In this document: one piece after another, positions 1 to 12,577 of the stretch | Layout: every line of letters begins with the position of its first letter | How positions within the stretch are numbered: position 1 is the stretch's first letter | Virus record (IMG/VR): IMGVR_UViG_3300020159_004428 | Location: 1-20,500 of that record | Source of the DNA: a virus | Direction: 5' to 3' (one strand) | Length of the DNA: 20,500 nucleotides | Notes under the pieces: model-generated | Told to the model about the DNA's origin: nothing | The model's input: only the letters and a program-made list of their open reading frames with translations | Database searches by the model: none | Position numbers and translations under genes: made by a program

Positions 1-1185
1 AGACTTGCCAAACATGAATTCGCCACCCTCGTGGTGATAGCTAATTCGAACTGTTTGCTTTTCTCCATTCATCATTGCTTCAAAAACAATCATATTTTCA
101 TCAAGCGTAATGATTTTGACTGGTGCGTCCATCTCGTCCGCTAGCGCACGGCCAAGGCGTTTGCGGAATGATTCCATCTCTGGAGCAGAGGTGACATCGT
201 AAAACTCACCATATTCGCCGTCAGCACCCTTTTTCTTGGTGCTTGAGTATCGATCAAGAAGTCTGCGGCCTTTTGCAGCAAGTTCGGCGGCATCTTCACG
301 AGTTTTTGGGGCTGGCTCACCCCATGCTCGAGCCGACAAGGCAAGGCGTGTTGGCTCGCCCTTGTCATCAACTAATGGGCCTGAGGGATTGGTAAAAAAT
401 CGAGTTAAGAAAGAACCTTTTCGGCGCATTTTTGTCGGAGTGTCGGCAGGACCCTTTACTCCTGGCTTAAGGTCAGCCCCCTCTGTGCGCTTAAAATGAG
501 CCCTACCAGCCGCCGTGAGCCCTCCATCGGGATCTTTTAGAGGTTGGTCTGATGACTTTGTTGTTCCTGTAATAGGTACACAATTCGGCACCATTTTACC
601 GTTTTTACCAGGCTTCATTCCGACCTGTTCGTATCCGTCCCAGCATGGATTGTCGGCTGCTTTTTCCTGATCATCGGATTTAATCGAGATAGTGCCGGTA
701 AGTTGATTTGCGCCGTGAAGAACCGGACTTACTTCGTACAACTCAACTTCTTTAAGGATGTTCGCCTGACGAGCATTGTCGTAAACTGCGTCAAGTGTTT
801 TGTAGCCAATAGACCATTCTTGATCCATTCCGAAAAAGCTGATACTGGCAAAGGCTTCTCGGCCGCGTTCGCTCTTTAGGTTAAATTGAACTCGCGCATA
901 AAGGCCACCGATTCCTGCCTCGCGCATTTTTTTTGGCAGACGGGGATCGTTTTGACCAACTTCATAGATGTCAAGGACTTTCCCGATTGGCTGATTCCAG
1001 TCGTGACCCCAAACAACACGGGGGGTTCGGCGGCGTAAGCTCGCAGAGAATGCTCCGGGTGCGCAAATATCGCCAACGCTGTCCTTGTTTCCGACGCCCG
1101 CCACGAAGCATTCGACAATACCTTCTGCCTCGTCAACAGTAATTTGGCCAGGGTTTTGCTTGAATTGGATACCACTAGTCGACAT
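1..1185 (-). CDS. HK97-family prohead protease with C-terminal extension (3' end beyond window)
   Basis: Serine protease that cleaves scaffold and capsid precursors during prohead maturation. The reading frame is open from the ATG at 1185 to the left edge (395 codons, no stop), so the C-terminus is missing. The start follows a GAGGTGG ribosome site. Residues about 15-165 are the protease domain: the motif VVWGHDWNQPIG places the likely catalytic His at 61, and ELYEVSPVLHGAN places the likely catalytic Ser at 153. After it come a Cys-Trp-containing motif (CWDGYEQVGMKPGKNG, about 181-196, then PNCVP) and a segment from about 218 to 312 (DPDGGLTAAGR ... PLVDDKGEPTRLALSARAWG) that resembles the DUF6321-type region of other phage proteins. 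The final 80 residues are unrecognised. The usual protease is about 200 residues, so this one is at least twice normal length. It lies downstream of the portal on the same strand; a capsid gene probably follows to the left. The protease call is firm; the extension assignment is from memory of the family. Confidence 0.9.
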   Translation of the reverse strand, partial: MSTSGIQFKQNPGQITVDEAEGIVECFVAGVGNKDSVGDICAPGAFSASLRRRTPRVVWGHDWNQPIGKVLDIYEVGQNDPRLPKKMREAGIGGLYARVQFNLKSERGREAFASISFFGMDQEWSIGYKTLDAVYDNARQANILKEVELYEVSPVLHGANQLTGTISIKSDDQEKAADNPCWDGYEQVGMKPGKNGKMVPNCVPITGTTKSSDQPLKDPDGGLTAAGRAHFKRTEGADLKPGVKGPADTPTKMRRKGSFLTRFFTNPSGPLVDDKGEPTRLALSARAWGEPAPKTREDAAELAAKGRRLLDRYSSTKKKGADGEYGEFYDVTSAPEMESFRKRLGRALADEMDAPVKIITLDENMIVFEAMMNGEKQTVRISYHHEGGEFMFGKS

Positions 1186-1252
1186 AAACCACCTCGGTTC
1201 AATCATAAATCATTATGATTGCTTTCAGTGAATGTTTCTAGTTCTTTACTCG

Positions 1253-1279
1253 AGTTTACTAAAAGGCTTTAAGTAAACT
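1253..1279. repeat. Near-perfect inverted repeat between portal and protease genes
   Basis: AGTTTACT at 1253-1260 is matched by AGTAAACT at 1272-1279. The centre also pairs (AAAG, one base, CTTT), apart from one A-A mismatch on each side. The right arm overlaps the portal stop codon (1278-1280). No T-run follows on the minus strand, so it is not a standard intrinsic terminator. An mRNA processing or stability hairpin, a weak terminator, or a protein-binding operator would all fit. A second, weaker hairpin (AATCATA / TATGATT, 1201-1220) lies between it and the protease start. Confidence 0.5.
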
Positions 1280-3671
1280 ACTGAAACCGGAGTCGGCATC
1301 GGCAGTTCATGGTCAGATGTGGCGGCGCAACAGGGTCGCCAGGGAACCTAAGTCCAAACCCGTCAGTCATAAAATCTTCGCCAAAAGGGACCGTTTTGCC
1401 ATGTAAGTGGAGATGTTCGGGTCGGACTCGACTATCTCTCCTGGTCAGCCATGTTTTTTGTGCTGTATCGTCATCTTGGGCTCCGAAGTAAACACCGGCA
1501 TTAAATGCGGTCTGTGCTTCGTGCTCTGCAATAACGCGCTTTCTCTTGCCAAGGAGATTTGCAAATATGGCAACTAACGCAGCACGCAACATTGATGAAC
1601 GATCTTCATCGCCCCCAAGAGCTAAGGCAATCAAAATTGCTGCTGTGATTTCTTCTTTGGTAGTTTCATTTACCTTTTGCAAACGCTCTACTTGGGAGTT
1701 GACATATTCGTCATATTGAGCTCCGGTTGGCTGTTGGCGCGGAGCATCTTGGTTAGGTGTAGTGCTAAGCGCCCCATCTTGAGAGATTGCAACAACAACT
1801 GGCCTAATATCCTCGGCTAGCTGTTTTGCCCACACTTCTGAATCAAATACCGCTTCCACGGCTAAGTTGCCTTTATCTAAGCCTTTTTTAGCACCCTTGC
1901 CAGCTGCTTTTTCTAGGACCACACGCTGTTGTCGTTCGAATAAACGCTCCAAAGAACGATCAAGAATTTCCGTCCATCGTTCTGTTGTTTGTTCTGCCTT
2001 CATATCCCACTCAGTGAGTGTCGTGGAATCGATCTTTATTTCGATCGGGTTGCCGGATATTGTTTGCTGCGTTTTGGCATCCTTAACTGCGGTAGCTGGC
2101 ACGCCAGGCATAATTTCGCCATTTTCGTCTGGTTCCATCAGGTCAAATGGCGAGGGTACCGGTTGTGGTCCTCCCGCAACGGACTCTGCTGTTACCCCAG
2201 GGAGAATTTCTCCTGCGGCATCAGGCTGGGTTCCAGCAAGTGCTGGATTTGCGGCCATCGCTGCCTGGTCCTGAGGGACGCCTAATGGTGGAGGAGTTTC
2301 TGTATATCCACTCATTTCAGCACCGGGAGCACCTGGCATTGCTGGGGCCGCACCCTCGCCCATCAGTCCGGCCATTCCCGGAGCGCCACCGGCACCCATC
2401 ATGTCAATTGGCTGCTGACCCTGCGGTTCAAATTTCTTTTCAGTATTTGCAATTGGTGTCAAGTTAGGGTTAGAAAGAAGACTGTCAGCAAGTTCGGAGT
2501 CGACTTTTTTCTTTCCGGTTCCATCGCGGTATTCATTAGCAGAAATAAGCCCACTATTGAACTCCTCGAGCAAATACCGCTCGCGCTCTTGTTTGGAAAG
2601 AATCAGAATCGGAACATTTGATACATCGAAATCGACATAATTTTGATCGTCCAGGTTGTCTAATGCCCGAGCAATAAGCATTAGGTGGGGCATCATTGTT
2701 TCCATCCAGAATACGCGCAGTTCTTCTGCGGCGTTGCTGAAGGTACGGCCAGATGCATTTCCCATCACTGATTCTGGAACGCCAAATGAAGCAAGGATTT
2801 CTTCTTTGGTAATTTGCCTCATCTGGATATACGCCGCGTCGCGAGGGTTGGAAGAAGTATCTACAAAATCAACGCCTTCATCGGCCGAGACGACCGTAAC
2901 AGACCCTGTCTTGTTAAGATTTCCACGGAATCTATTGCGGAGCTCATCTTTGTCGTCGTCGTCTATTTCTCCACGAAGAACCAAAAGACCGCCTGGGCGA
3001 CCATCATTTAGTAGGAAGTTTCGGTTGTAAACCTTTGCCAGGTTTTCGATTTCAATTGCTATTCCAGCCGACTCCATTGGTGTCAAAGATAGATATGGAT
3101 CGAGCGGATGTGGCTTTCTAATCCATAAGACATCTTCAGGTTTAAGAATTTGCTTAAAACCATTATTCATAAGTACTTCATAGCCACTTACAAATTTTTT
3201 CGGGTCCGGAATAGGGGAGGTATGCTGCGGTGGAAGAAGATGAAGGGCAACTATTCCACCGTCTCGACCTCGAACTTTTTCGACGAATACTCCTCTAGAG
3301 CTCATTAGTAGTTGTGAGGAAAGTCGATAACGGAAAATAAATGAATTTTCCCCATCATTAGTTTGTGTATTCAGAATATCTAAAAGGGGGTCATTTTTCT
3401 TTCGAATAATTCGGCCGTCTTGCTGGTTGTCCTTGCGCAAGATAATTGGCAATCGAGCCTGATTTCCTGACACAGCATCAATACACCGTGAAACCCAGGT
3501 GACCTTCTGCATTCCTTCTCGGTATGCTCGCTCAATATCCCAAGAATCCCTATATGGTTTCCCTGCATTTGCCGTATTGTAAGCAACGGGAGCACCAGGA
3601 CCAATCGCAGCGCCCTTGGTCGCCTCAGACTGGAGGGACTTGTTATTTTGTTTGTTCCATCCCATTTTCAC
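1278..3671 (-). CDS. Portal protein fused to a C-terminal MuF-like head morphogenesis domain
   Basis: The portal forms the ring at the capsid vertex through which DNA enters and to which the tail attaches. MuF-like domains mark minor head proteins packaged with or attached to the portal. Residues about 40-400 of 797 read as an HK97-type portal (LLPPQHTSPIPD near 145; NFLLNDGRPGGLLVL near 218; ITKEEILASFGVPESVMG near 287-304). Residues about 415-540 are a low-complexity Gly/Ala/Pro/Met linker. Residues about 675-797 match the MuF family: RRDSRVRPEHLHLHGKTVP (744-762) and PPHLTMNCRCRLRF (783-796). Portals are usually 400-550 residues, so this is a clear fusion with no stop between the parts. 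The start is GTG at 3671, overlapping the upstream TGA as GTGA; ATG at 3665 is an alternative. The protease gene follows after about 90 bp. Confidence 0.92.
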   Translation of the reverse strand: MKMGWNKQNNKSLQSEATKGAAIGPGAPVAYNTANAGKPYRDSWDIERAYREGMQKVTWVSRCIDAVSGNQARLPIILRKDNQQDGRIIRKKNDPLLDILNTQTNDGENSFIFRYRLSSQLLMSSRGVFVEKVRGRDGGIVALHLLPPQHTSPIPDPKKFVSGYEVLMNNGFKQILKPEDVLWIRKPHPLDPYLSLTPMESAGIAIEIENLAKVYNRNFLLNDGRPGGLLVLRGEIDDDDKDELRNRFRGNLNKTGSVTVVSADEGVDFVDTSSNPRDAAYIQMRQITKEEILASFGVPESVMGNASGRTFSNAAEELRVFWMETMMPHLMLIARALDNLDDQNYVDFDVSNVPILILSKQERERYLLEEFNSGLISANEYRDGTGKKKVDSELADSLLSNPNLTPIANTEKKFEPQGQQPIDMMGAGGAPGMAGLMGEGAAPAMPGAPGAEMSGYTETPPPLGVPQDQAAMAANPALAGTQPDAAGEILPGVTAESVAGGPQPVPSPFDLMEPDENGEIMPGVPATAVKDAKTQQTISGNPIEIKIDSTTLTEWDMKAEQTTERWTEILDRSLERLFERQQRVVLEKAAGKGAKKGLDKGNLAVEAVFDSEVWAKQLAEDIRPVVVAISQDGALSTTPNQDAPRQQPTGAQYDEYVNSQVERLQKVNETTKEEITAAILIALALGGDEDRSSMLRAALVAIFANLLGKRKRVIAEHEAQTAFNAGVYFGAQDDDTAQKTWLTRRDSRVRPEHLHLHGKTVPFGEDFMTDGFGLRFPGDPVAPPHLTMNCRCRLRFQ

Positions 3672-3880
3672 TCAAGTCCAAGTAATATGCCGACTGCGAA
3701 GCAGGCGACGCCGGCTACAATTAAACCTGCAGGAGCATATATCATTGACGCCCCTATGGCAGTATTAAGTATAAAGCACAGCATCAAGAGATTTGCGATC
3801 ACATCTCGACGCAGTAACCATTTCTGGAAACGAGTTATGATGGATTTAAAGCTTGAAGCAAATATTTTCAATAGGCTCAC
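3668..3880 (-). CDS. Small membrane protein, two predicted transmembrane helices
   Basis: A 70-residue protein of unknown function. A basic amphipathic N-terminus (KIFASSFKSIITRFQKWLLRRD) leads into two hydrophobic stretches: about 28-46 (IANLLMLCFILNTAIGASM) and 50-68 (PAGLIVAGVACFAVGILLG). The short loop contains YAPAG. It ends in a TGA that overlaps the portal GTG, so the two are probably translationally coupled. Small membrane proteins of this shape occur just before portal genes in other phages, in my recollection, but no function is established. The only start in the frame is GTG at 3880, without a clear ribosome site, so the N-terminus is uncertain. A plus-strand reading of the same DNA (3648-3929) looks less protein-like. 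Confidence 0.6.
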   Translation of the reverse strand: MSLLKIFASSFKSIITRFQKWLLRRDVIANLLMLCFILNTAIGASMIYAPAGLIVAGVACFAVGILLGLE

Positions 3881-3929
3881 CGTGCCGACACTAGTCGCTT
3901 TTGGGTCGTTTGCGTGGAAAGATTTCTGA
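3881..3929. promoter_or_regulatory. Divergent intergenic region between head module and terminase
   Basis: About 49 bp separate the minus-strand head genes from the plus-strand terminase. Genes diverge here, so promoters for both directions are expected in or near this gap. I cannot point to a convincing -35/-10 pair on either strand. The only clear element is GGAAAG at 3916-3921, placed as a ribosome site for the terminase. The promoter assignment rests on gene orientation only. Confidence 0.3.
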
Positions 3930-5240
3930 TTGATTATGACAGATTGGGCGAAAGTTCTCCAGTATTTAGAACCACGAATGTCATTGTACTCTCCAGAAGA
4001 GGCATCATTGACACAAAAAGTGTTCCTTCGGACATATGCGCTTGAAGCACTATTCGGTGGAGCCGCCGGTGGAGGTAAGTCCTCAGCACTACTTATGGCA
4101 GCAATGCAGTATGTCGATGTTCCTGGATATTCAGCAATCTTATTCAGGCGGACCTACGCCGACTTGTCTCTGCCAGGTGCACTCATGGACCGTTTTAAAG
4201 ACTGGATTGCTCCACACGATGATATTCACTGGAACGCAAACTCATATGTAGCTACATTCCCATCGGGGGCACGAATTTCATTCGGATATTTAAACAACCA
4301 GAATGACTATCTTCGATATAAGGGTTCCGAATTTCAATTTATTGGCATGGATGAAGTTACAGAAATTCGCGAATCCGACTATCGTTACATGTTCTCCCGT
4401 CTGCGCCGTCCGGCAAACGGACCATTGTCGCAGGTTCCATTACGAATGCGGGCCGCGTCAAACCCAGCGCCAAACTGGGTACGCCAGCGATTCATTGTCG
4501 AAGGACTAGAAACTAATCGTATTTTTGTGCCCTCAAAACTTACTGACAACCCTGGAATTGATGCCGAATCGTATCGACAGGCACTACAGGCGCTAGATCC
4601 CGTTGAACGCAGGCGCCTTGAAGAGGGCGACTGGTGGTCATCGACGCTTGGATCAATGTTTGACAGAACAAGCTTTGTGATTATTGATCCGCATGAAATT
4701 CCGGTAATTACATCAGCAGCAAGAGTTGTAAGATTTTGGGACCTCGCTGCAAGCGAACCATCGCCGTCATACCCAGATCCTGACTGGACAGTTGGGACGC
4801 TCGGTATATTTGACCAGGGAATTTTTTATATTTTGGATGTTCGTCGCGCCCGTGTTAAGAGTGACAAGGTAGAACACCTAATTGCCCAAACGGCCCTAGA
4901 GGATGGACCTCTCGTGTCGATTCGCATGGAACAAGAACCTGGATCTTCCGGTAAGGCTCTTGTTGACCAGTTTGCGCGGTATGTATTGCCGGGATATGAC
5001 TTCCAGGGCATTAGGTCAACCGGTGACAAGATCACTCGTGCTCGGCCATTTTCTGCATCTGCAGCTAACGGGAATGTTCGATTGGTACGCGGGCGATGGT
5101 TGACTGACTGGCTAGACGAGGTCTCAGCATTTCCTGAAGGCCTTACCCACGACGACCAGGTTGACTCAGCTGTAGGGGCATTTACATTTCTTTCTGGCCT
5201 CGGGTTGCCTCAACGCAAAAAGGTGGCTATCATCGTCTAA
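3930..5240 (+). CDS. Terminase large subunit (DNA packaging ATPase/nuclease)
   Basis: Motor that pumps DNA into the prohead through the portal and cuts the concatemer. The 436 residues are normal length. N-terminal ATPase: Walker A GGAAGGGKS (43-51), Walker B FIGMDE (137-142), and an ASN coupling motif (176-178). C-terminal RNase H-fold nuclease: acidic residues in RFWD (D271), MEQE (E334/E336) and THDDQVDS (D408/D409, D412). All expected catalytic elements are present, so it should be functional. The frame opens at TTG 3930, 8 nt after GGAAAG; the in-frame ATG at 3936 is 14 nt away, so TTG has the better spacing but the choice is open. No small terminase is recognisable in the window. Its position opposite the portal, on the other strand, is unusual. 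Confidence 0.96.
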   Translation: MIMTDWAKVLQYLEPRMSLYSPEEASLTQKVFLRTYALEALFGGAAGGGKSSALLMAAMQYVDVPGYSAILFRRTYADLSLPGALMDRFKDWIAPHDDIHWNANSYVATFPSGARISFGYLNNQNDYLRYKGSEFQFIGMDEVTEIRESDYRYMFSRLRRPANGPLSQVPLRMRAASNPAPNWVRQRFIVEGLETNRIFVPSKLTDNPGIDAESYRQALQALDPVERRRLEEGDWWSSTLGSMFDRTSFVIIDPHEIPVITSAARVVRFWDLAASEPSPSYPDPDWTVGTLGIFDQGIFYILDVRRARVKSDKVEHLIAQTALEDGPLVSIRMEQEPGSSGKALVDQFARYVLPGYDFQGIRSTGDKITRARPFSASAANGNVRLVRGRWLTDWLDEVSAFPEGLTHDDQVDSAVGAFTFLSGLGLPQRKKVAIIV

Positions 5241-5261
5241 GTAAATCTCCGAAAGGATGCT

Positions 5262-5756
5262 ATGGAACTATCTAACTATCTATCGTCGTTAAATTTGACC
5301 GTAATTGAACTTGATACGGCATTGACCTCGGCTCGAGAGAAAATGACACTCGACGAGGCTGCTGACATTCTTGTCGCACTAAATCGTCATCGCGACGAAG
5401 TAAAAATTGTTTACGACAGCCTTGCTCACCTCGTTGGACAACTAATGAACCAACAGAGCGAAATGCTTGCTGGCGACGGAACAAAAATTGAAAAAAAGGG
5501 CGATGTAAATCGAACTGCTTGGAAGCATAAAGATCTTGCAAATGAAGTTGTGTCTCGCTTGTCAGAAATGGCGATTGATACATCTACTGGTGAAATTATG
5601 TTGAGTGGTCAAGAAATGGCCATGAAAATGCTCGACTACATACAACCATCGTACTGGCGAATTAAAGAGTTGAGCACGCTTGGAATCAACGCTGACAACT
5701 TCTCTAAAGTCGGAGAATACAAAGAGAGCATCATTGTTAGAAAGGCAAAACCATGA
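5262..5756 (+). CDS. Conserved phage protein of unknown function, first gene of recombination operon
   Basis: A 164-residue, charged, largely helical protein. The N-terminal half (about 1-75) looks like a helical pair or coiled coil (LDTALTSAREKMTLDEAADIL...). A central basic motif KKGDVNRTAWKH (about 78-89) and a C-terminal motif IQPSYWRIKELSTLGI (about 131-146) stand out as likely conserved features. I recall similar proteins next to Rad52-type annealing genes in actinobacteriophages, but no function is known to me. AAAGGA precedes the ATG by a good distance. It overlaps the Rad52-like gene by ATGA, so the two are probably co-translated. A partner or accessory factor of the annealing protein is a guess from position only. 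Confidence 0.7.
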   Translation: MELSNYLSSLNLTVIELDTALTSAREKMTLDEAADILVALNRHRDEVKIVYDSLAHLVGQLMNQQSEMLAGDGTKIEKKGDVNRTAWKHKDLANEVVSRLSEMAIDTSTGEIMLSGQEMAMKMLDYIQPSYWRIKELSTLGINADNFSKVGEYKESIIVRKAKP

Positions 5757-6559
5757 CATCATCAAACAAACACACAACAGCAGAAGAGCTTGTTGAAGAT
5801 TATGCTGCTGAATTTGCGGCTGATATAAAGCTAGAAAATCATCGTCGTGAGCAAAATCGACAATACCAGACAAAGCTTTTTGAACAGCTCAGCGAGCCAT
5901 TTCCTGTGGAGATGGAGCGCACGCTTGTTAAAGGTGGAACGCGCCTTACTTACCTACCAGTATCTGAGGTAATTACTCGCCTAAATCGAATCTTTGGCCC
6001 GCTGAATTGGTCATTTGAAATCATTAAGTGTGAGCGCGATACGCTCGATCCGGAATTTATTGTTGCCCATGTTCGCCTTACGGTTAATGGCGAAACCGGA
6101 TGGTCACATGTTTCAAAAGATGGATTTGGTGGTCAGCAAATCAAGCGCAAAAAAGATGGAACGATTGTCGATCTAGGTGACGAATTTAAAGGTGCTGTAT
6201 CTGACGCACTCAAAAAAGCGGCACAACAGCTTGGCGTTGGTCTATACCTGGCCCGAGATCCTGACGCAATCGAGATTGATGGCGCAATGCATGCATCCGA
6301 AATCGTTGAGCAACCAGCAGCTCCAGCAATGCCTCAGGGCTACGACCAGTTCATGTCGCTCCGTAGTCAACTCAATGAAGATCAAGTGCAGAAACTTCGC
6401 TCGTACTGGAATGATTTTAGCAAGGGTCGCCCTGTGCCTAAGCCACAGGAATTCACCTCTAATGAACTTGATGTTTTGATCACGGAGTGCACTCGACTCT
6501 TGCTTGATGGCGAATACACAGTTCCGCAATCTGAGGATGGCGAGAATGACGGAGAATGA
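5753..6559 (+). CDS. Rad52/Sak-family single-strand annealing protein
   Basis: Recombinase that anneals complementary single strands, used in phage recombination and replication restart. Of 268 residues, about 50-168 form the core: YLPVSEVITRLNRIFGPLNWSFE (67-89) and DEFKGAVSDALKKAAQQLGVGLYL (143-166), the characteristic Rad52-family signature. The remainder is an acidic C-terminal region (about 185-268). In other systems, acidic tails of annealing proteins recruit single-strand binding protein or a partner nuclease. The start is ATG 5753, sharing ATGA with the upstream stop. The next gene, a RecB/Cas4-like nuclease, starts inside its 3' end, which matches the common annealase-exonuclease pairing. 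The family call is strong from motif order. Confidence 0.9.
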   Translation: MTSSNKHTTAEELVEDYAAEFAADIKLENHRREQNRQYQTKLFEQLSEPFPVEMERTLVKGGTRLTYLPVSEVITRLNRIFGPLNWSFEIIKCERDTLDPEFIVAHVRLTVNGETGWSHVSKDGFGGQQIKRKKDGTIVDLGDEFKGAVSDALKKAAQQLGVGLYLARDPDAIEIDGAMHASEIVEQPAAPAMPQGYDQFMSLRSQLNEDQVQKLRSYWNDFSKGRPVPKPQEFTSNELDVLITECTRLLLDGEYTVPQSEDGENDGE

Positions 6560-7325: not shown

Positions 7326-7828
7326 ATGATGATGCTTTTGCCAGGTTAGTGGCAGAGGAAGTGAAGAATCGCGTAAGCAAAACACAGCGCGATTTTCTCC
7401 GCATGCCCGAAAACTGGGAACGATGGCAGCGATCGCTGATTTCATTGTGTACAAATCTAGGTAATCAGATTGTCTACATAGAATCAGATCAATCATCTGA
7501 TCGTTCTCGGTATGAGGCACTTGGAGATGATGGCATTAAGTTGCTTGCAGAAGCAATGTCCGACTATGAACAAAAGCGATCGAAGATTGAACGCTTCAAA
7601 TTTCATGTCGAAAAGCGACTTGATGAAGTAACCGTAATGATCGCCAGTGGCTCAGACTCGATTGATGAAAACATTGGGCTTGCGGTTTTTCTAAAGTCTG
7701 CGATCGTAAAACATCGCGAGCTCCTGAATGAGTACGACATCGAGCCAACCCCAGTTGACCAGGCGCTCTGGTCTAGCCTTGAGGGCAAATGGTCATTTGA
7801 TGAAATCAGGTCGGAAGACATCAGCTGA
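7322..7828 (+). CDS. Conserved hypothetical protein in recombination operon
   Basis: A 168-residue protein I cannot assign. It is rich in charged helices: DAFARLVAEEVKNRVSK (4-20), a tryptophan-rich ENWERWQRSL (about 30-39), then a long helical stretch from about 75 to 140 (YEQKRSKIERFKFHVEKRLDEV). No metal site, Walker motif or membrane segment is visible. ATG overlaps the upstream nuclease stop (ATGA), and its own TGA overlaps the glycosyltransferase ATG by one base. This tight coupling between a nuclease and a glycosyltransferase suggests a role in the DNA metabolism operon, but that is inference. I recall similar proteins in actinobacteriophage genomes. Confidence 0.7.
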   Translation: MNDDAFARLVAEEVKNRVSKTQRDFLRMPENWERWQRSLISLCTNLGNQIVYIESDQSSDRSRYEALGDDGIKLLAEAMSDYEQKRSKIERFKFHVEKRLDEVTVMIASGSDSIDENIGLAVFLKSAIVKHRELLNEYDIEPTPVDQALWSSLEGKWSFDEIRSEDIS

Positions 7829-8904
7829 TGTTTTTGCCTAAGATTGGGATTGTTTCGACAGACTGGTCGGGTTCTATTGTCGATAAACGCGGGCACCCGG
7901 AACCCGGTGGGGCTGGTTTTATTCGACTTCAGCAACTTCGACCGCATATTCAGAATACAACCGTAACTGGCCCTCTGCTTTTCAATGAAAAAACCGGCTT
8001 TAGCGTGGCTGAATTTAATGGAAAAGTTCATACTGACTGTGGCGTAATTATTTTGCAGCGCCTCATGTTTAAGGGTTTGGTTGAAACACTCAAGTATGTC
8101 CGCAGCATGCCTGTCAGGCCACTAATAGTTAATGATTTGGATGACTGGTATTGGGGCCTGCATCCCAATAATGCAGCATTCAATCTCGTTGACCCCAATG
8201 TCAATAAAGACGAAAACCTTGATCACTATCTTCAAATACTAGAGCTATCTGACATTGTTGTCGTTTCAACGCCATTCCTTCTACAACGAATGAAAAAATT
8301 GCTAAAGAACCCAAGTGTTGTAATGATTGAAAATTGCGTTTCAACACAAATGTTTTCGGTAAGACGACTCAATCTAAAGAAACCAATCATTGGCTGGGTT
8401 GGGTCTACATCACATCGATCAAATGACCTTGAGGAACTTCGTGGTGTTTTCAATCGGGCCGATCGATTGCATCATTCAGGCCATATTGATGGTGCTCCGC
8501 TTTTTTGGGAGCGAGTAGACGGAGTGCCAAACCGCGTATCTTTATCGTCAATGAACCCACCACATGAATACATGCGCAAATCTTTCTGTTTTGATATAGG
8601 CCTAGCTCCACTTTCCGACATTGACTTTAATAAAGCCAAGTCATGGATCAAGATGATCGAGTATGCGGCAGCTGGGATTCCGGCTGTTTGCTCACCATCG
8701 CCAGAATATGTTCGTCTTCATGAAGAATATGGCATTGGACGAATCGCTCACTCAAAAGATGAATGGCGCTCTCACATCGATGAATTACAAAACACCCGTG
8801 TTAGAAATATTGAAGCAAAAGCAAACAGAGATCGGGTTCGAGCACTTGATGTTACGAAAATGGCTAGTCAGTGGGCTGACCTTCTTCAGGGGCACCTTGC
8901 ATGA
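7828..8904 (+). CDS. GT-B fold glycosyltransferase (group 1/4 type)
   Basis: Likely transfers a sugar from a nucleotide-sugar donor to an unknown acceptor: modified DNA, a virion protein, or host surface glycan. In the 358-residue protein, the N-terminal half has DLDDWYWGLHP (103-113) and ELSDIVVVSTPFL (139-151), typical of the acceptor-side Rossmann fold. The C-terminal half has IGWVGSTSHRSND (188-200) and KSWIKMIEYAAAGIPAVCSP (271-290), the donor-binding region of GT4-type enzymes. There is no signal peptide or membrane helix, so it should be cytoplasmic. Its start overlaps the previous stop by one base and its end overlaps the HNH gene by four, so it is locked into the recombination operon. 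The fold call is good; the substrate cannot be read from sequence. Confidence 0.82.
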   Translation: MFLPKIGIVSTDWSGSIVDKRGHPEPGGAGFIRLQQLRPHIQNTTVTGPLLFNEKTGFSVAEFNGKVHTDCGVIILQRLMFKGLVETLKYVRSMPVRPLIVNDLDDWYWGLHPNNAAFNLVDPNVNKDENLDHYLQILELSDIVVVSTPFLLQRMKKLLKNPSVVMIENCVSTQMFSVRRLNLKKPIIGWVGSTSHRSNDLEELRGVFNRADRLHHSGHIDGAPLFWERVDGVPNRVSLSSMNPPHEYMRKSFCFDIGLAPLSDIDFNKAKSWIKMIEYAAAGIPAVCSPSPEYVRLHEEYGIGRIAHSKDEWRSHIDELQNTRVRNIEAKANRDRVRALDVTKMASQWADLLQGHLA

Positions 8905-9221
8905 GATACCGCTCAAAAAAGAAAGAAGCAGAATATAGGCTTCGACGCCCACTAGTTGCTCGATTATTAGAGGAACGGCCACTATGCGAGGCATGTCCAA
9001 AATTTGCCGAATATGATCAAAAGCAACTTTATACACGGAACGGATCGCAGGACATACATGAAATTGTGCGACGGTCGCAAGGTGGATCAATTCTTGACGA
9101 AAATAATCTCATGGCTGTTTGCCGGAGTTGTCATAATCGTATTGGCTCTCATCCTGCTCTCGCTTTTGAACTAGGCTTAGCCAAGCATGGATGGACGACT
9201 AATGATTCCGATGGGGATTGA
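8901..9221 (+). CDS. HNH endonuclease
   Basis: A 106-residue nuclease with a zinc-ribbon type HNH motif. Cys29/Cys32 (LCEAC) and Cys74/Cys77 (CRSC) would hold the structural zinc. HEIV (His53-Glu54), Asn69 in DENN and His78-Asn79 form the His-Asn-His metal site. The N-terminus is strongly basic (RYRSKKK), suited to DNA binding. Small HNH proteins next to terminases assist packaging in some HK97-like phages; this one instead sits beside a RuvC-like resolvase, so it may act in DNA processing or be a free-standing homing-type nuclease. It is coupled to the glycosyltransferase by an ATGA overlap and overlaps the resolvase start. The operon position and overlaps argue against recent insertion. Confidence 0.87.
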   Translation: MRYRSKKKEAEYRLRRPLVARLLEERPLCEACPKFAEYDQKQLYTRNGSQDIHEIVRRSQGGSILDENNLMAVCRSCHNRIGSHPALAFELGLAKHGWTTNDSDGD

Positions 9222-9705
9222 TCTCTCGCTGACATCGACTGGTGTCAGTTGTCAAAATATACTGTCGTGCATCAATAGCCCAAATAAGGGCATTCCACGG
9301 CTAATTGATATTTCCGAACAACTTACGGAAATGATTGAACAGATTGATGGTCCTATTGTAGGGGTTATTGAGGGCTATTCATTTGCTAGCCGAAATTCGC
9401 AAGCTCACTCACTAGGCGAGCTTGGTGGAGTTATTCGAACTATGCTTTTTAAGCGTTCTATTCCATGGGTTAATGTTCCGCCAACAGTGCGTGCCAAGTT
9501 TGCCACCGGGCGCGGCAATGCAGCAAAAACTGAAGTTATGTCTGCAGTGTCAGCAAGAACCGGACTTGTTTTTTCTGGAAAAGGTGCTGATGATATGTGT
9601 GATGCCTGGATTTTGGAAGAAATTGGTTTAGTTAAATACGGAACCCCGCGCTCAAGTTGGCCTGAAGCCAATTTACGGGCGCTTGACAAGATTGAGTGGG
9701 CATGA
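9202..9705 (+). CDS. RuvC-like Holliday junction resolvase
   Basis: Cleaves four-way DNA junctions left by recombination or replication before packaging. From ATG 9202 the protein is 167 residues. The RNase H/RuvC acidic residues are in place: GIDLSLTSTGV (Asp7), VIEGYSF (Glu57), and ADDMCDAW (Asp130/131 and Asp134). LGELGGVIR (71-79) and GNAAKTEVM (105-113) also match the RuvC family pattern. GGATGGA about 7 nt upstream supports 9202; ATG 9187 and ATG 9211 are possible alternatives, and the domain would be intact from each. It overlaps the HNH gene by 20 nt. It completes an annealase, exonuclease and resolvase set in a single operon. Confidence 0.87.
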   Translation: MIPMGIDLSLTSTGVSCQNILSCINSPNKGIPRLIDISEQLTEMIEQIDGPIVGVIEGYSFASRNSQAHSLGELGGVIRTMLFKRSIPWVNVPPTVRAKFATGRGNAAKTEVMSAVSARTGLVFSGKGADDMCDAWILEEIGLVKYGTPRSSWPEANLRALDKIEWA

Positions 9706-10055
9706 TGCAATATTTACGAAATAGTCCGATTTCACAAGTCGAAATCGAGAATGAGCTTCTTCGATTGCTTTCGTTGCTTGAAGAAGAGACGGAAGCATTT
9801 GAGAGCCTTTGTGGAGATGCCGCCAAAAAAGAAGCTCTCTATAAAGCAAATTGGGCAAAAGAATATTTGTCTGCAAAAGGCTCTATTAAAGAGCGAGAAG
9901 CATGGGCTGACTACAAATTGTCAGACGAATCATTCGATTTCAAAATTTCAGAAGCTTTAGTTAAAGCTAAGCGCGAAAAATTAACATCCTTACGCACATC
10001 TATTGACGCACTTAGAACTCTTAATGCTAATGTTCGATCTCAGGTGAACCTATGA
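9702..10055 (+). CDS. Small helical/coiled-coil phage protein, function unknown
   Basis: A 117-residue, almost entirely helical and highly charged protein. Residues about 10-30 (VEIENELLRLLSLLEEETEAFE) and 85-112 (KAKREKLTSLRTSIDALRTLNANVRSQ) have heptad-like leucine spacing. The closing DALRTLNANVRSQV is the most distinctive motif; I recall it from uncharacterised actinobacteriophage proteins near recombination genes. It begins at ATG 9702, overlapping the resolvase stop as ATGA, and ends in ATGA with the ParB-like gene, so it bridges the recombination and ParB/PP-loop blocks. No catalytic motif is visible. A structural or adaptor role is inferred only from its shape. Confidence 0.7.
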   Translation: MMQYLRNSPISQVEIENELLRLLSLLEEETEAFESLCGDAAKKEALYKANWAKEYLSAKGSIKEREAWADYKLSDESFDFKISEALVKAKREKLTSLRTSIDALRTLNANVRSQVNL

Positions 10056-10843
10056 ATGCGAACATAAACGAGAGTATTTCCCATCTTGCGGTCGATGTCG
10101 ATCTGCTTATTCCACTACCAGGAAACCCGCGTGTAGGAAATGTCGAAGCTATTTCTGCTTCATACGCTGAATTTGGCCAGGTAAAGCCAATTGTGATCAG
10201 GCCTAATGATGACGGAACATCTACCGTGATTGCCGGCAACCATCAACTACTTGCAGCAAAACGCCTTGGGTGGACCCATATTGCAGCCGTCGAGATGGAC
10301 GCTGATGATAAGCGGGCACTAGCTTTTGCAATGGCCGATAACCGCTCAATGGAGCTTGGTCATACTGATGGCGATTTGCTTAATGACATTTTGTCGCAAA
10401 TTTCAGATGATTATTCTGGTTTGCTCGATGGTCTTGGGTGGGATGATTTCGAACTTGCTGCCATTAATGAATCTTCTCTTAGGGTTGAGCGAAACAATGC
10501 GTTGGGCGGCTATGTCACCCCAGTTATGCAAGCTCTTGGCGACATAGTTGGTGCAATTGTAGGAGATCTTCCAGATGTTGTACATGACGAGATAACTGGT
10601 GAAAGCCGCATTGTTGCACCAGTTGGCAGCGACCATAGGTCAATCGCAACACAAGGTTCTACATCAATTAATCAGTCTGGTTCTGATAGGGCAGTTGTGC
10701 AATACACGCTAGTTTTTGACAATACAGAGCAACAGCGTAAGTGGTATTCATTCATTAGATGGCTAAAGACAGATGCCGGTAGTGATGGGGATACAATCGC
10801 TGAGCGAATTATTAATTTTCTGGAATCGCACGCCGATTTCTGA
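10052..10843 (+). CDS. ParB/sulfiredoxin-fold protein (first ParB-like of the trio)
   Basis: The N-terminal part (about 14-118 of 263) is a ParB-like domain: LIPLPGNPRVGNVEAISASY (19-38), VKPIVIRP (44-51), VIAGNHQLLAAKRLGW (59-74) and AFAMADNRSMELG (91-103). This domain type binds CTP in chromosomal ParB and has been linked to nuclease or regulatory roles in phage and plasmid relatives. There is no helix-turn-helix in the usual position, so a partition role is unlikely. The C-terminal third (about 215-263; FDNTEQQRKWYSFIRWLK) looks like a separate small domain. It is coupled by ATGA to the upstream gene and followed after 11 bp by the PP-loop gene. ParB-like plus PAPS-reductase-like pairs are known as IbrB/IbrA in E. 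coli. Confidence 0.85.
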   Translation: MNANINESISHLAVDVDLLIPLPGNPRVGNVEAISASYAEFGQVKPIVIRPNDDGTSTVIAGNHQLLAAKRLGWTHIAAVEMDADDKRALAFAMADNRSMELGHTDGDLLNDILSQISDDYSGLLDGLGWDDFELAAINESSLRVERNNALGGYVTPVMQALGDIVGAIVGDLPDVVHDEITGESRIVAPVGSDHRSIATQGSTSINQSGSDRAVVQYTLVFDNTEQQRKWYSFIRWLKTDAGSDGDTIAERIINFLESHADF

Positions 10844-10854
10844 GTAGGAGAGCT

Positions 10855-12021
10855 ATGACTAGGCAACGAATGTTTCTTGATATCAACTGCGTTGAAGCAG
10901 CGCGCCAGCGGATCCGTCATGTTTATGACTCCTTCGATACCGTGTGCGTGCAATTCTCTGGTGGTAAAGACAGCACAGCAATTCTTTATCTAGCTAAAGA
11001 AATACATGAAGAACGAGGCCTGGGTCCGGTAAAGGTCATTTTCCGAGATGAAGAGATGGTAAGCCCATCGGTAATTAAATTTGTCGAAGAAGTTCGTAAT
11101 TATGACTGGGTCGACATGGAGTGGTATTGCCTGCCGGTTGGTCAGGAAGTATGGGTTTTAGGCCGTCGCGAATATTGCCTCCTGTGGTCAGAGAAGCGTC
11201 GTAAAGAAGGGCGCCTTGTTCGCGACATCCCAGAATGGGCAATCACGGCACAACACTTTGGTCTTGACGCAAACTCACAAATACCTCAATCTGTCGATCA
11301 TTACCAGATGCAAGGCAAAAAAGGCAAAGTCGCTTTTATTACTGGCGTTCGCGCAAATGAATCAATGATTCGCTACCGCTCATGTGTTCAAAAACTGCAT
11401 GAAAATTACATAGTCCATCCGTTCAAGTTGCCAAAAAGCGTTCCGCTCAAGTTCGCTAAAATTATTTACGACTGGACGACAGCTGATGTTTTGAAATTCA
11501 TCACTGAAGAACATGGGGCGAATTATTGTAGCTATTACGACCTAGCGGCAATTACTGGATCAAACACACGAGTAGGAATTCCACTACACGCTGTTGCTGT
11601 TCGTCGAATTGGCGATGTTATTAAAACTGAACCGCAGTTCCTTGATGAGCTAGTGCGCTGTTTTCCGCATGTTGATGCTCAACGACGCTGGTGGCCAGAA
11701 TTTGACATTGAAAAGTTGATCAAGCGTTATTCAGATAATGGCTGGGATGGCGTTAGGCAATGCATTGAAGATAACTTCATTACGCCCGGCAAACAAATGC
11801 GCGCTAGATCATTTGCTGCCGAGTTCCGTAAAAAACATGCCACCGATCCCTACTCGTATCCGATTCATTGGTTGGTTAGAAACCTGCTCCTAAACGAGCT
11901 AACCCCTAGTAGGTCGGTAAATCCGATTGGGCCAGGAACTCGGGCACATACTCTTCGACTACAGGAAGCACAACAACAGGCAGATCTTGATAGCTTGGAC
12001 TACCAGGACGATACGGTATAG
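10855..12021 (+). CDS. PP-loop PAPS reductase-like protein (IbrA-like)
   Basis: An adenine-nucleotide alpha-hydrolase-fold protein of 388 residues. The PP-loop FSGGKDS (34-40) binds the nucleotide; GVRANESMIRYRS (164-176) and YDWTTADVLKFI (205-216) are further landmarks of the PAPS-reductase/DndC-like superfamily. True CysH enzymes need a C-terminal ECG(L/I)H cysteine motif, which is absent, and there is no CxxC pair for an iron-sulfur cluster, so sulfate reduction is unlikely. Residues about 270-345 form an added C-terminal region (RRWWPEFDIEKLIKRYSDNGW) as in IbrA-type proteins. GGAGAG precedes ATG 10855. It is flanked by two ParB-like genes. E. coli IbrA/IbrB act as regulators by an unclear mechanism; DndC relatives feed DNA phosphorothioation. 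Which applies here cannot be told. Confidence 0.85.
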   Translation: MTRQRMFLDINCVEAARQRIRHVYDSFDTVCVQFSGGKDSTAILYLAKEIHEERGLGPVKVIFRDEEMVSPSVIKFVEEVRNYDWVDMEWYCLPVGQEVWVLGRREYCLLWSEKRRKEGRLVRDIPEWAITAQHFGLDANSQIPQSVDHYQMQGKKGKVAFITGVRANESMIRYRSCVQKLHENYIVHPFKLPKSVPLKFAKIIYDWTTADVLKFITEEHGANYCSYYDLAAITGSNTRVGIPLHAVAVRRIGDVIKTEPQFLDELVRCFPHVDAQRRWWPEFDIEKLIKRYSDNGWDGVRQCIEDNFITPGKQMRARSFAAEFRKKHATDPYSYPIHWLVRNLLLNELTPSRSVNPIGPGTRAHTLRLQEAQQQADLDSLDYQDDTV

Positions 12022-12028
12022 GAAAATG

Positions 12029-12577
12029 ATGAAAACACAGACTTATTCACTAACAGATTTAACCCCACCAGGTTGGCGCTCCACATACATGATGCGACCA
12101 GAAATTGCGATGCTCGCTCAGTCACTTAATCAGTATGGGTGGATTAGCCCGCTGATAGTAAAGAGCGATACCCTCGAAATAATCGATGGCTACCATCGAT
12201 GGCTGGTTGTCAAGACTGATAAAGGAATGGCCAAGAAGCTGGGTCGCGATATTCCTTGCGTTACTGTTAAATGCGATCAGGCCCAAGCAATGATGATGCA
12301 TCTCCAGTTAAATAGGGGGCGCGGATTAGTTCTAGGAGAGGGAACTTCCTTTATAATTCGTGAACTTCTTAAGTCAAAACGCTACGGCAAAGCGGCGATT
12401 ATGCACTCTTTGTCCATGTCCTCTGATGAATTCGACCTTATGGTCGACGCTACATTAATTAAACATTTAAAGATTCCGACCCATACATACTCCAAGGCAT
12501 GGGTACCAGTAGAGGCTCCAGCGTCGATTGGCGACATTGCTGCAACGATCGAGCGACCACCAAACGCAGATCGGTAA
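12029..12577 (+). CDS. Second ParB-like domain protein
   Basis: A 182-residue protein with a divergent ParB-like domain in residues 8-100: LTDLTPPGWRSTYM (8-21), LAQSLNQYGWISPLIV (29-44), EIIDGYHRWLVV (50-61) and the QLNRGRG motif (93-99), which corresponds to the conserved N-R segment of the family. Residues about 103-145 (IIRELLKSKRYGKAAIMHSLSMSSDEFDLMV) could form a short helix-turn-helix, as expected for a DNA-binding ParB relative. The open frame extends to 11927 inside the PP-loop gene, but AGGAAA just before 12026-12029 and the homology support ATG 12029 (12026 is also possible). It follows the PP-loop gene by 7 bp and shares little residue-level similarity with the first ParB-like protein, so the two are not a recent duplication. 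Confidence 0.8.
   Translation: MKTQTYSLTDLTPPGWRSTYMMRPEIAMLAQSLNQYGWISPLIVKSDTLEIIDGYHRWLVVKTDKGMAKKLGRDIPCVTVKCDQAQAMMMHLQLNRGRGLVLGEGTSFIIRELLKSKRYGKAAIMHSLSMSSDEFDLMVDATLIKHLKIPTHTYSKAWVPVEAPASIGDIAATIERPPNADR

Follow-up and report, generated by a model that had tools for sequence, protein, structure and literature searches.

A phage gene trio of two ParB-like proteins and a PP-loop protein as a probable DNA-modification module

What does a PP-loop protein do in a phage when its gene lies between those of two different ParB-domain proteins? The question is raised by IMG/VR virus record IMGVR_UViG_3300020159_004428, of which positions 1 to 20,500 were analysed (this 20.5 kb viral record is referred to as the window). 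An earlier note, made from the sequence alone, had described such a trio, and Pfam and PHROGs profiles confirm all three genes, which lie on the plus strand: ParB1 (10052-10843, 263 amino acids; Pfam ParB_N, E-value 1.7e-7; phrog_723, 4.8e-41), a PP-loop ATP-pyrophosphatase-like protein of the PAPS_reduct superfamily, here called PP (10855-12021, 388 amino acids; PAPS_reduct, 4.3e-10; phrog_2302, 2.7e-76), and ParB2, an IbrB-like ParB protein (12026-12577; phrog_2159, 1.1e-29), which matches Pfam ParB_N at 0.0049 only, under the Pfam cut-off. We conclude that the trio is probably a ParB-guided, ATP-dependent module for the (hyper)modification of phage DNA. It sits where relatives carry known DNA-base-modification genes, so that it probably disguises the viral DNA chemically, and the reading draws directly on the protein families, the invariant motifs, the fold, the conserved gene order, the co-retention of the genes and their exchange with a locus of proven modification function. 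The literature searched, with subscription journals mostly outside reach, contained no description of the trio.

Conservation and co-retention of the trio

One scan of IMG/VR returned at least 569 stretches with PP relatives. Five scans of viral records, a single genome scan and annotated phages yielded 188 PP-type loci, which fall into 18 clusters at 60% identity, the window clade being at most 39% identical to any other cluster. ParB1 lies upstream and ParB2 downstream of PP in 17 of the 18 clusters, and the neighbouring ParBs are on the same strand in 290 of 291 cases. ParB genes and the methyltransferase genes discussed below were called in these loci with self-built profiles from few sequences, and PHROGs families bore these assignments out independently; all counts per locus are lower bounds because contig ends cut many loci, and IMG/VR records are often fragments. 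Trios are also present in named phages, namely Arthrobacter phage Salgado (genes 5-6-7), Mycobacterium phage Phlyer (1-4-5), prophi79-1 (93-95-97), Bacillus phage 031MP004 (79-80-84) and Rhizobium phage RHph_I4 (114-115-116, gene 114 being annotated as a methyltransferase and actually another ParB), and in a phage-like region of an Amycolatopsis plasmid.

The genes also stay together when their order is lost. Among 24 contigs of at least 44 kb, 23 encode proteins of both families, phrog_723 and phrog_2159, the sole exception being a 56 kb record (G002) that is maybe a fragment. An apparent sister clade without ParBs did not hold up, as a whole-contig search places both ParBs elsewhere in the genome. 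In four genomes the trio genes are ~20-85 kb apart with both ParBs kept: they lie near 92, 73 and 22 kb in G001 and near 86, 66 and 18 kb in G025, ParB1 is ~85 kb from PP in G020, and ParB2 is ~42 kb away in G007. Because the three genes have been kept through such rearrangements, they very probably function together. The conserved co-occurrence that the earlier note had proposed to look for, with mostly unlinked homologues as the outcome that would speak against it, is thus found in both gene order and genome content. ParB2 relatives occur in 87 of 50,697 phage records, a background figure over all records and not over a matched PP-less set, and their counts per genus are identical to those of full-length PP carriers (Mycobacterium 55, Arthrobacter 12, Bacillus 6, Rhizobium 4). 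Proximity to the terminase is only partial, at ~5-7 kb in the window clade, where the large subunit (TerL; 3930-5240, plus strand) is encoded ~5.6 kb upstream of PP in the window; it is lost in the split genomes, and terminase adjacency was therefore rejected as a universal feature of the trio.

Exchange with a modification cassette before the terminase

Action on DNA, which the earlier note had proposed from linkage to annealase and nuclease genes, is the best reading, but it is not this linkage that decides; what does is an exchange on the terminase side with a proven modification cassette. Among cluster-B mycobacteriophages, the Rosebushvirus FrenchFry has the order ParB-TGT(DpdA)-QueC-QueD-QueE-FolE-terminase-...-RuvC-...-portal, and Phlyer has ParB1-gp2-gp3-PP-ParB2-terminase-...-RuvC-...-portal. 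The equivalent slot in Suigeneris and AnarQue reads ParB-TGT-other genes-terminase, with the TGT family confirmed. Phlyer shares with these three phages 57-62% identity in TerL, ~55% in the portal and 48-53% in gp1, the ParB encoded by the first gene, and FrenchFry gp1 belongs to phrog_723 (2.5e-65), which is also the family of the window ParB1. Phlyer, prophi79-1, FrenchFry, Suigeneris and AnarQue each have a RuvC gene in the neighbourhood of the trio or of what replaces it. Virion DNA of Rosebush carries dPreQ0 at ~28% of G and resisted several restriction enzymes (PMC6884629), and a DpdB identity has been suggested for the ParB gene ahead of DpdA in phages of this kind (PMC6392294). With slot, flanks and ParB family shared, the trio thus replaces a proven DNA-modification cassette of its relatives while retaining the ParB partner of that cassette. 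The likeness to the dPreQ0 cassette (ParB/DpdB-like, DpdA, QueC/D/E, FolE) is limited to the pre-terminase slot and the phrog_723 first gene, whereas no transglycosylase or 7-deazaguanine pathway gene is annotated in the Phlyer slot, which contains PP and ParB2 instead. Judging by positions 1-6000 of three loci (L286, L287, L288), the pre-terminase slot of cluster-B-type phages looks like a site at which different DNA-modification cassettes are swapped while the ParB at their head stays the same.

Neighbourhoods of other ParB1 relatives, chosen from a spread list, contain further modifying enzymes. The relatives adjoin Mom-like proteins (phrog_1384) in Sonny and Blett and an HMC-glucosyltransferase in jlb1, and the one in prophi_GD43-6 is fused to a DNA methylase beside the terminase; the fifth neighbourhood, that of ScarletRaider, has no recognised modifying neighbour, and its ParB-bearing protein is a long fusion. 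Many contigs with CmoX, linked to 5-carboxymethylcytosine, also carry ParB genes, whose role is unknown (PMC12783734), and DpdB and DndB of known DNA-modification systems are ParB-superfamily proteins (PMC12839542; PMC10853773). In the ParB-methyltransferase fusions and the ParB-Mom, -glucosyltransferase and -CmoX loci, as probably in the trio, a ParB1-type domain goes with an enzyme that modifies DNA, and the terminase is often close by; these loci differ from the trio in that enzyme and in having one ParB.

Candidate tailoring enzymes accompany many trios. A small methyltransferase family, phrog_11826, is found beside the trio in 10 of the 18 clusters, with the invariant residues P-x-I-H ... 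D ... G-L ... A-R-R ... E ... G-R. Neither the DPPY/NPPY nor the PC motif of ordinary DNA methyltransferases was seen in the family, which would fit a tailoring of the group installed by PP. The family, seen in L083:5536-6114 and 12 aligned relatives, has the ARR and EGR motifs and goes with the trio in clades other than that of the window; the window clade is without the methyltransferase genome-wide, and it was rejected as a fourth universal part. The glycosyltransferase phrog_7162, encoded in the window at 7828-8904 (plus strand), is a possible accessory of the window clade only. It is present in 10 large contigs of this clade, adjoining ParB2 in seven of them, and as it occurs in only 10 of 29 genomes it was likewise dismissed as a universal part. 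In Microbacterium phage Rasputia, genes for three glycosyltransferases, one acetyltransferase and one methyltransferase form a run that ends with an Ibr-type PP (L088:4758-6167, plus strand), and no ParB was found nearby.

Active-site residues, predicted mechanism and rival explanations

The ATP loop of PP is intact, and its fold is that of PP-ATPases. The SGGKDS loop (residues 35-40), which the earlier note had pointed out, is invariant in 68 diverse homologues, as are D65, E67, G164, R166, E169, S170, R173, D206-W207, D211 and Y228, giving the motifs SGGKDS, GxRxxES..R and DWxxxD. The note had also rightly found no catalytic ECG and no CxxC of the CysH type in the window PP, and no such cysteine is among the invariant columns; what it missed is a lone cysteine, C225, in a Y-C-x-x-Y-D motif, which is near-invariant (124 of 126 in the window clade, 115 of 120 loci with both ParBs). 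In an AlphaFold2 model of PP (mean predicted local distance difference test score, pLDDT, 89.7; predicted template modelling score 0.85), the closest solved fold is the PAPS (3'-phosphoadenosine 5'-phosphosulfate) domain of human FAD synthase (Z 16.3, 177 residues, 3.4 Å), followed by FMN adenylyltransferase and APS/PAPS reductases at Z ~14-14.6, ranks that are too close to name the nearest relative. PP shares with FAD synthase the motif DWxxxD...YCxLYD, of which YCxLYD is identical in the human enzyme; it differs in its sequence (~18% identity only), in its ParB partners and in an extra C-terminal helical region (~270-388), which is outside what the fold matches test. In the tree, all trio PPs form one phage clade (support 100/99) that is sister to the clade of IbrA duos, and both clades are jointly split from other PAPS_reduct proteins (100/98). 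Trio-type PPs in cellular records were confined to one 3.5 kb Kribbella contig and the Amycolatopsis plasmid, and the trio PP is hence nearly confined to phages.

ParB1 comprises a ParB/Noc-type N-terminal nucleotide-binding domain (~1-150), a disordered linker and a conserved C-terminal helical motif at 218-260 (Y-x3-F-D-x3-QQ-x2-W-x2-F-x3-L ... T-x3-R). Its AlphaFold2 model (pLDDT 84.6) has its best Foldseek matches in ParB/Noc proteins, including CTP/CDP-bound forms, its hidden Markov model match to Noc has an E-value of 5e-17, and the ParB/Noc N-terminal fold thus comes with nucleotide-site motifs. ParB2 keeps the motifs I-I-D-G-x-x-R and N-R (D54 in 113 of 114 sequences, G55 and R58 in 114 of 114, N96 in 112 of 114). 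The window ParB2 open reading frame (ORF) scores 263 bits with the ParB2 profile, 69 with IbrB and 28 with ParB1, placing ParB2 nearer to IbrB than to ParB1. From the fold and Noc match of the one and the motifs of the other, both proteins are predicted to retain the outline of a nucleoside triphosphate (NTP) pocket.

In the mechanism that we propose, PP would use ATP to activate, by adenylation, a group on DNA or on a nucleotide that is later built into DNA, to which a small nucleophile would then be attached. Both ParBs would bind DNA under the control of an NTP switch and, before packaging, load PP onto the phage DNA or bring it into position there; ParB1 belongs to the family of the ParB that accompanies the dPreQ0 transglycosylase and resembles the ParB moiety fused to methyltransferases. 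The mark may be extended by tailoring enzymes, the small methyltransferase in many clades and perhaps the glycosyltransferase in the window clade, and the likely benefit would be virion DNA shielded from host nucleases. More tentatively, and with somewhat less than even confidence, we suggest that the chemistry is an undescribed one, in which a PP-loop enzyme guided by two ParB switches carries out an ATP-activated substitution, or an addition of the adenylyl type, on DNA; the product would often be methylated or otherwise decorated later, and the system would be common among phages under the misnomer 'PAPS reductase'. Several points weigh against DNA modification. No report of a modified nucleoside in any trio phage was found in the literature searched, the synteny with the dPreQ0 cassette demonstrates replacement and not identity of function, and the window clade lacks the phrog_11826 methyltransferase. 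Nucleases and regulators, too, can contain ParB domains, and for the sister pair IbrA/IbrB the only role known to us is the activation of prophage genes.

The main rival explanation builds on this last point: PP and the ParBs might be an Ibr-like regulator, a DNA-bound, nucleotide-dependent co-activator of phage genes that leaves the DNA chemistry unchanged. The resemblance to IbrA/IbrB of E. coli ECOR-9 (DUF3440 proteins with a ParB), seen already in the earlier note, is borne out by the tree, in which PP with ParB2 is sister to the duo, both having a PP-loop PAPS_reduct protein beside an IbrB-like ParB; moreover, the Phlyer and RHph_I4 records bear Ibr labels, and IbrAB is described as an activator of prophage eib genes by the title of Sandt 2002, cited in PMC10434257. 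We nevertheless regard a purely regulatory role as unlikely, since a regulator would not need an ATP-pyrophosphatase loop that is intact or so many invariant residues of the active-site type, the exchange with DpdA/Que genes and the methyltransferase partner point to chemistry, and the Ibr activation could itself be indirect, via modification. The trio also departs from the duo in several respects: DUF3440 was matched in none of 68 trio PPs at E 0.01 but in 4 of 4 phage Ibr-type PPs tested, position 225 is Cys instead of the Asn found in 23 of 23 IbrA duos with IbrB downstream, the trio PP is nearly phage-confined, and two ParB families, as the earlier note had stressed, take the place of the single ParB. 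Less probable still, in our estimate, is DNA phosphorothioation or base thiolation of the DndC/SspD type. Dnd/Ssp systems, which are known to act on DNA, likewise combine a PP-loop enzyme (DndC) with a ParB-superfamily protein (DndB), PP belongs to the same PP-loop/PAPS_reduct superfamily and has weak N-terminal matches to DndC and BrxP, and Cys225 is near-invariant. However, the score against the DndC equivalog TIGR03183 is 20.9 bits (cut-off 290.4) and covers the N-terminus only, the alignment of the 68 homologues contains neither a second conserved cysteine for a DndC-type dyad nor an Fe-S site by motif, and the trio has two ParBs. C225 does not imply sulfur chemistry because YCxLYD is common to FAD synthase, and it was rejected as proof of sulfur transfer. 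A phage-encoded sulfur donor was not found either: none of 28 trio genomes encodes a cysteine desulfurase (PF00266), although the host could supply one and DndD/DndE were not searched for. Kinship with DndC, a clue in the earlier note, therefore does not decide the matter, the best fold match being FAD synthase and not a thiolase; the absence of DndC chains among the fold matches listed is uninformative either way.

The two remaining explanations appear very improbable to us. The ParB_N domains with their ParB/Noc CTP-binding fold could suggest a plasmid-type partition system in which the ParB-like proteins segregate the prophage of a phage-plasmid, but this was rejected because no ParA-type ATPase (AAA_31) exceeds the cut-off in the 28 trio genomes, and two different ParBs are tied to an enzyme. 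An equally slim chance is given to auxiliary sulfur metabolism, with a viral PAPS reductase boosting host sulfate assimilation. This is what the public label on many records says, and PP does share the SGGKxS PP-loop and the PAPS_reduct fold with CysH PAPS/APS reductases; yet without ECG and CxxC, in a separate phage clade with ParB partners and with FAD synthase as best fold match (PAPS reductases being close behind), PP is very probably not a sulfate-assimilation enzyme, in agreement with the earlier note.

Hundreds of phage contigs carry PP, and its relatives are labelled PAPS reductase in public records, and labels of this kind have been taken as a sign of viral sulfur metabolism. Should the trio modify DNA, this interpretation would not hold for the trio clade, and a new class of modification systems would be directly testable in phages of laboratory hosts (M. 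smegmatis, Arthrobacter, B. subtilis). DNA modification by the trio would, in addition, hint at the biochemistry behind IbrA/IbrB and would make phrog_723-type ParBs a general marker for unknown DNA-modification genes adjoining terminases.

Operon layout and neighbouring genes

In the window, the trio is tightly packed with a small conserved gene right upstream of ParB1 (9696-10055, plus strand; phrog_1389, function unknown), a local operon member outside the trio. This gene and ParB1 overlap by ATGA, 11 bp separate ParB1 from PP and 4 bp PP from ParB2, with GGAG ahead of the PP start and GGA ahead of the ParB2 start. The most likely start of ParB2 is the ATG at 12026 (or 12029), right behind the PP stop; the TTG at 11927, the start in the ORF list, is not credible because it falls within PP. 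A RuvC-like resolvase is encoded next to this group (9187-9705, plus strand). The window also encodes a portal protein fused to a MuF domain (1278-3671, minus strand, 797 amino acids), an unusual order in that its strand is opposite to that of the terminase and head-tail genes.

Other trio loci contain additional genes. A histone-deacetylase-like amidohydrolase (L035:6078-7004, plus strand; PF00850, 3.7e-28) lies between ParB1 and PP, its cluster being represented in six loci, and a dCMP-deaminase-like gene (L030:5106-5621, plus strand) adjoins ParB1, its cluster likewise being represented in six loci. In the sister clade, a pyrimidine-dimer DNA glycosylase (Pyr_excise; L063:6582-7004, plus strand) is encoded just 5' of PP, its cluster being represented in 14 loci of that clade, and a WhiB gene (PF02467; L042:4044-4403, minus strand) on one contig suggests actinobacterial hosts.

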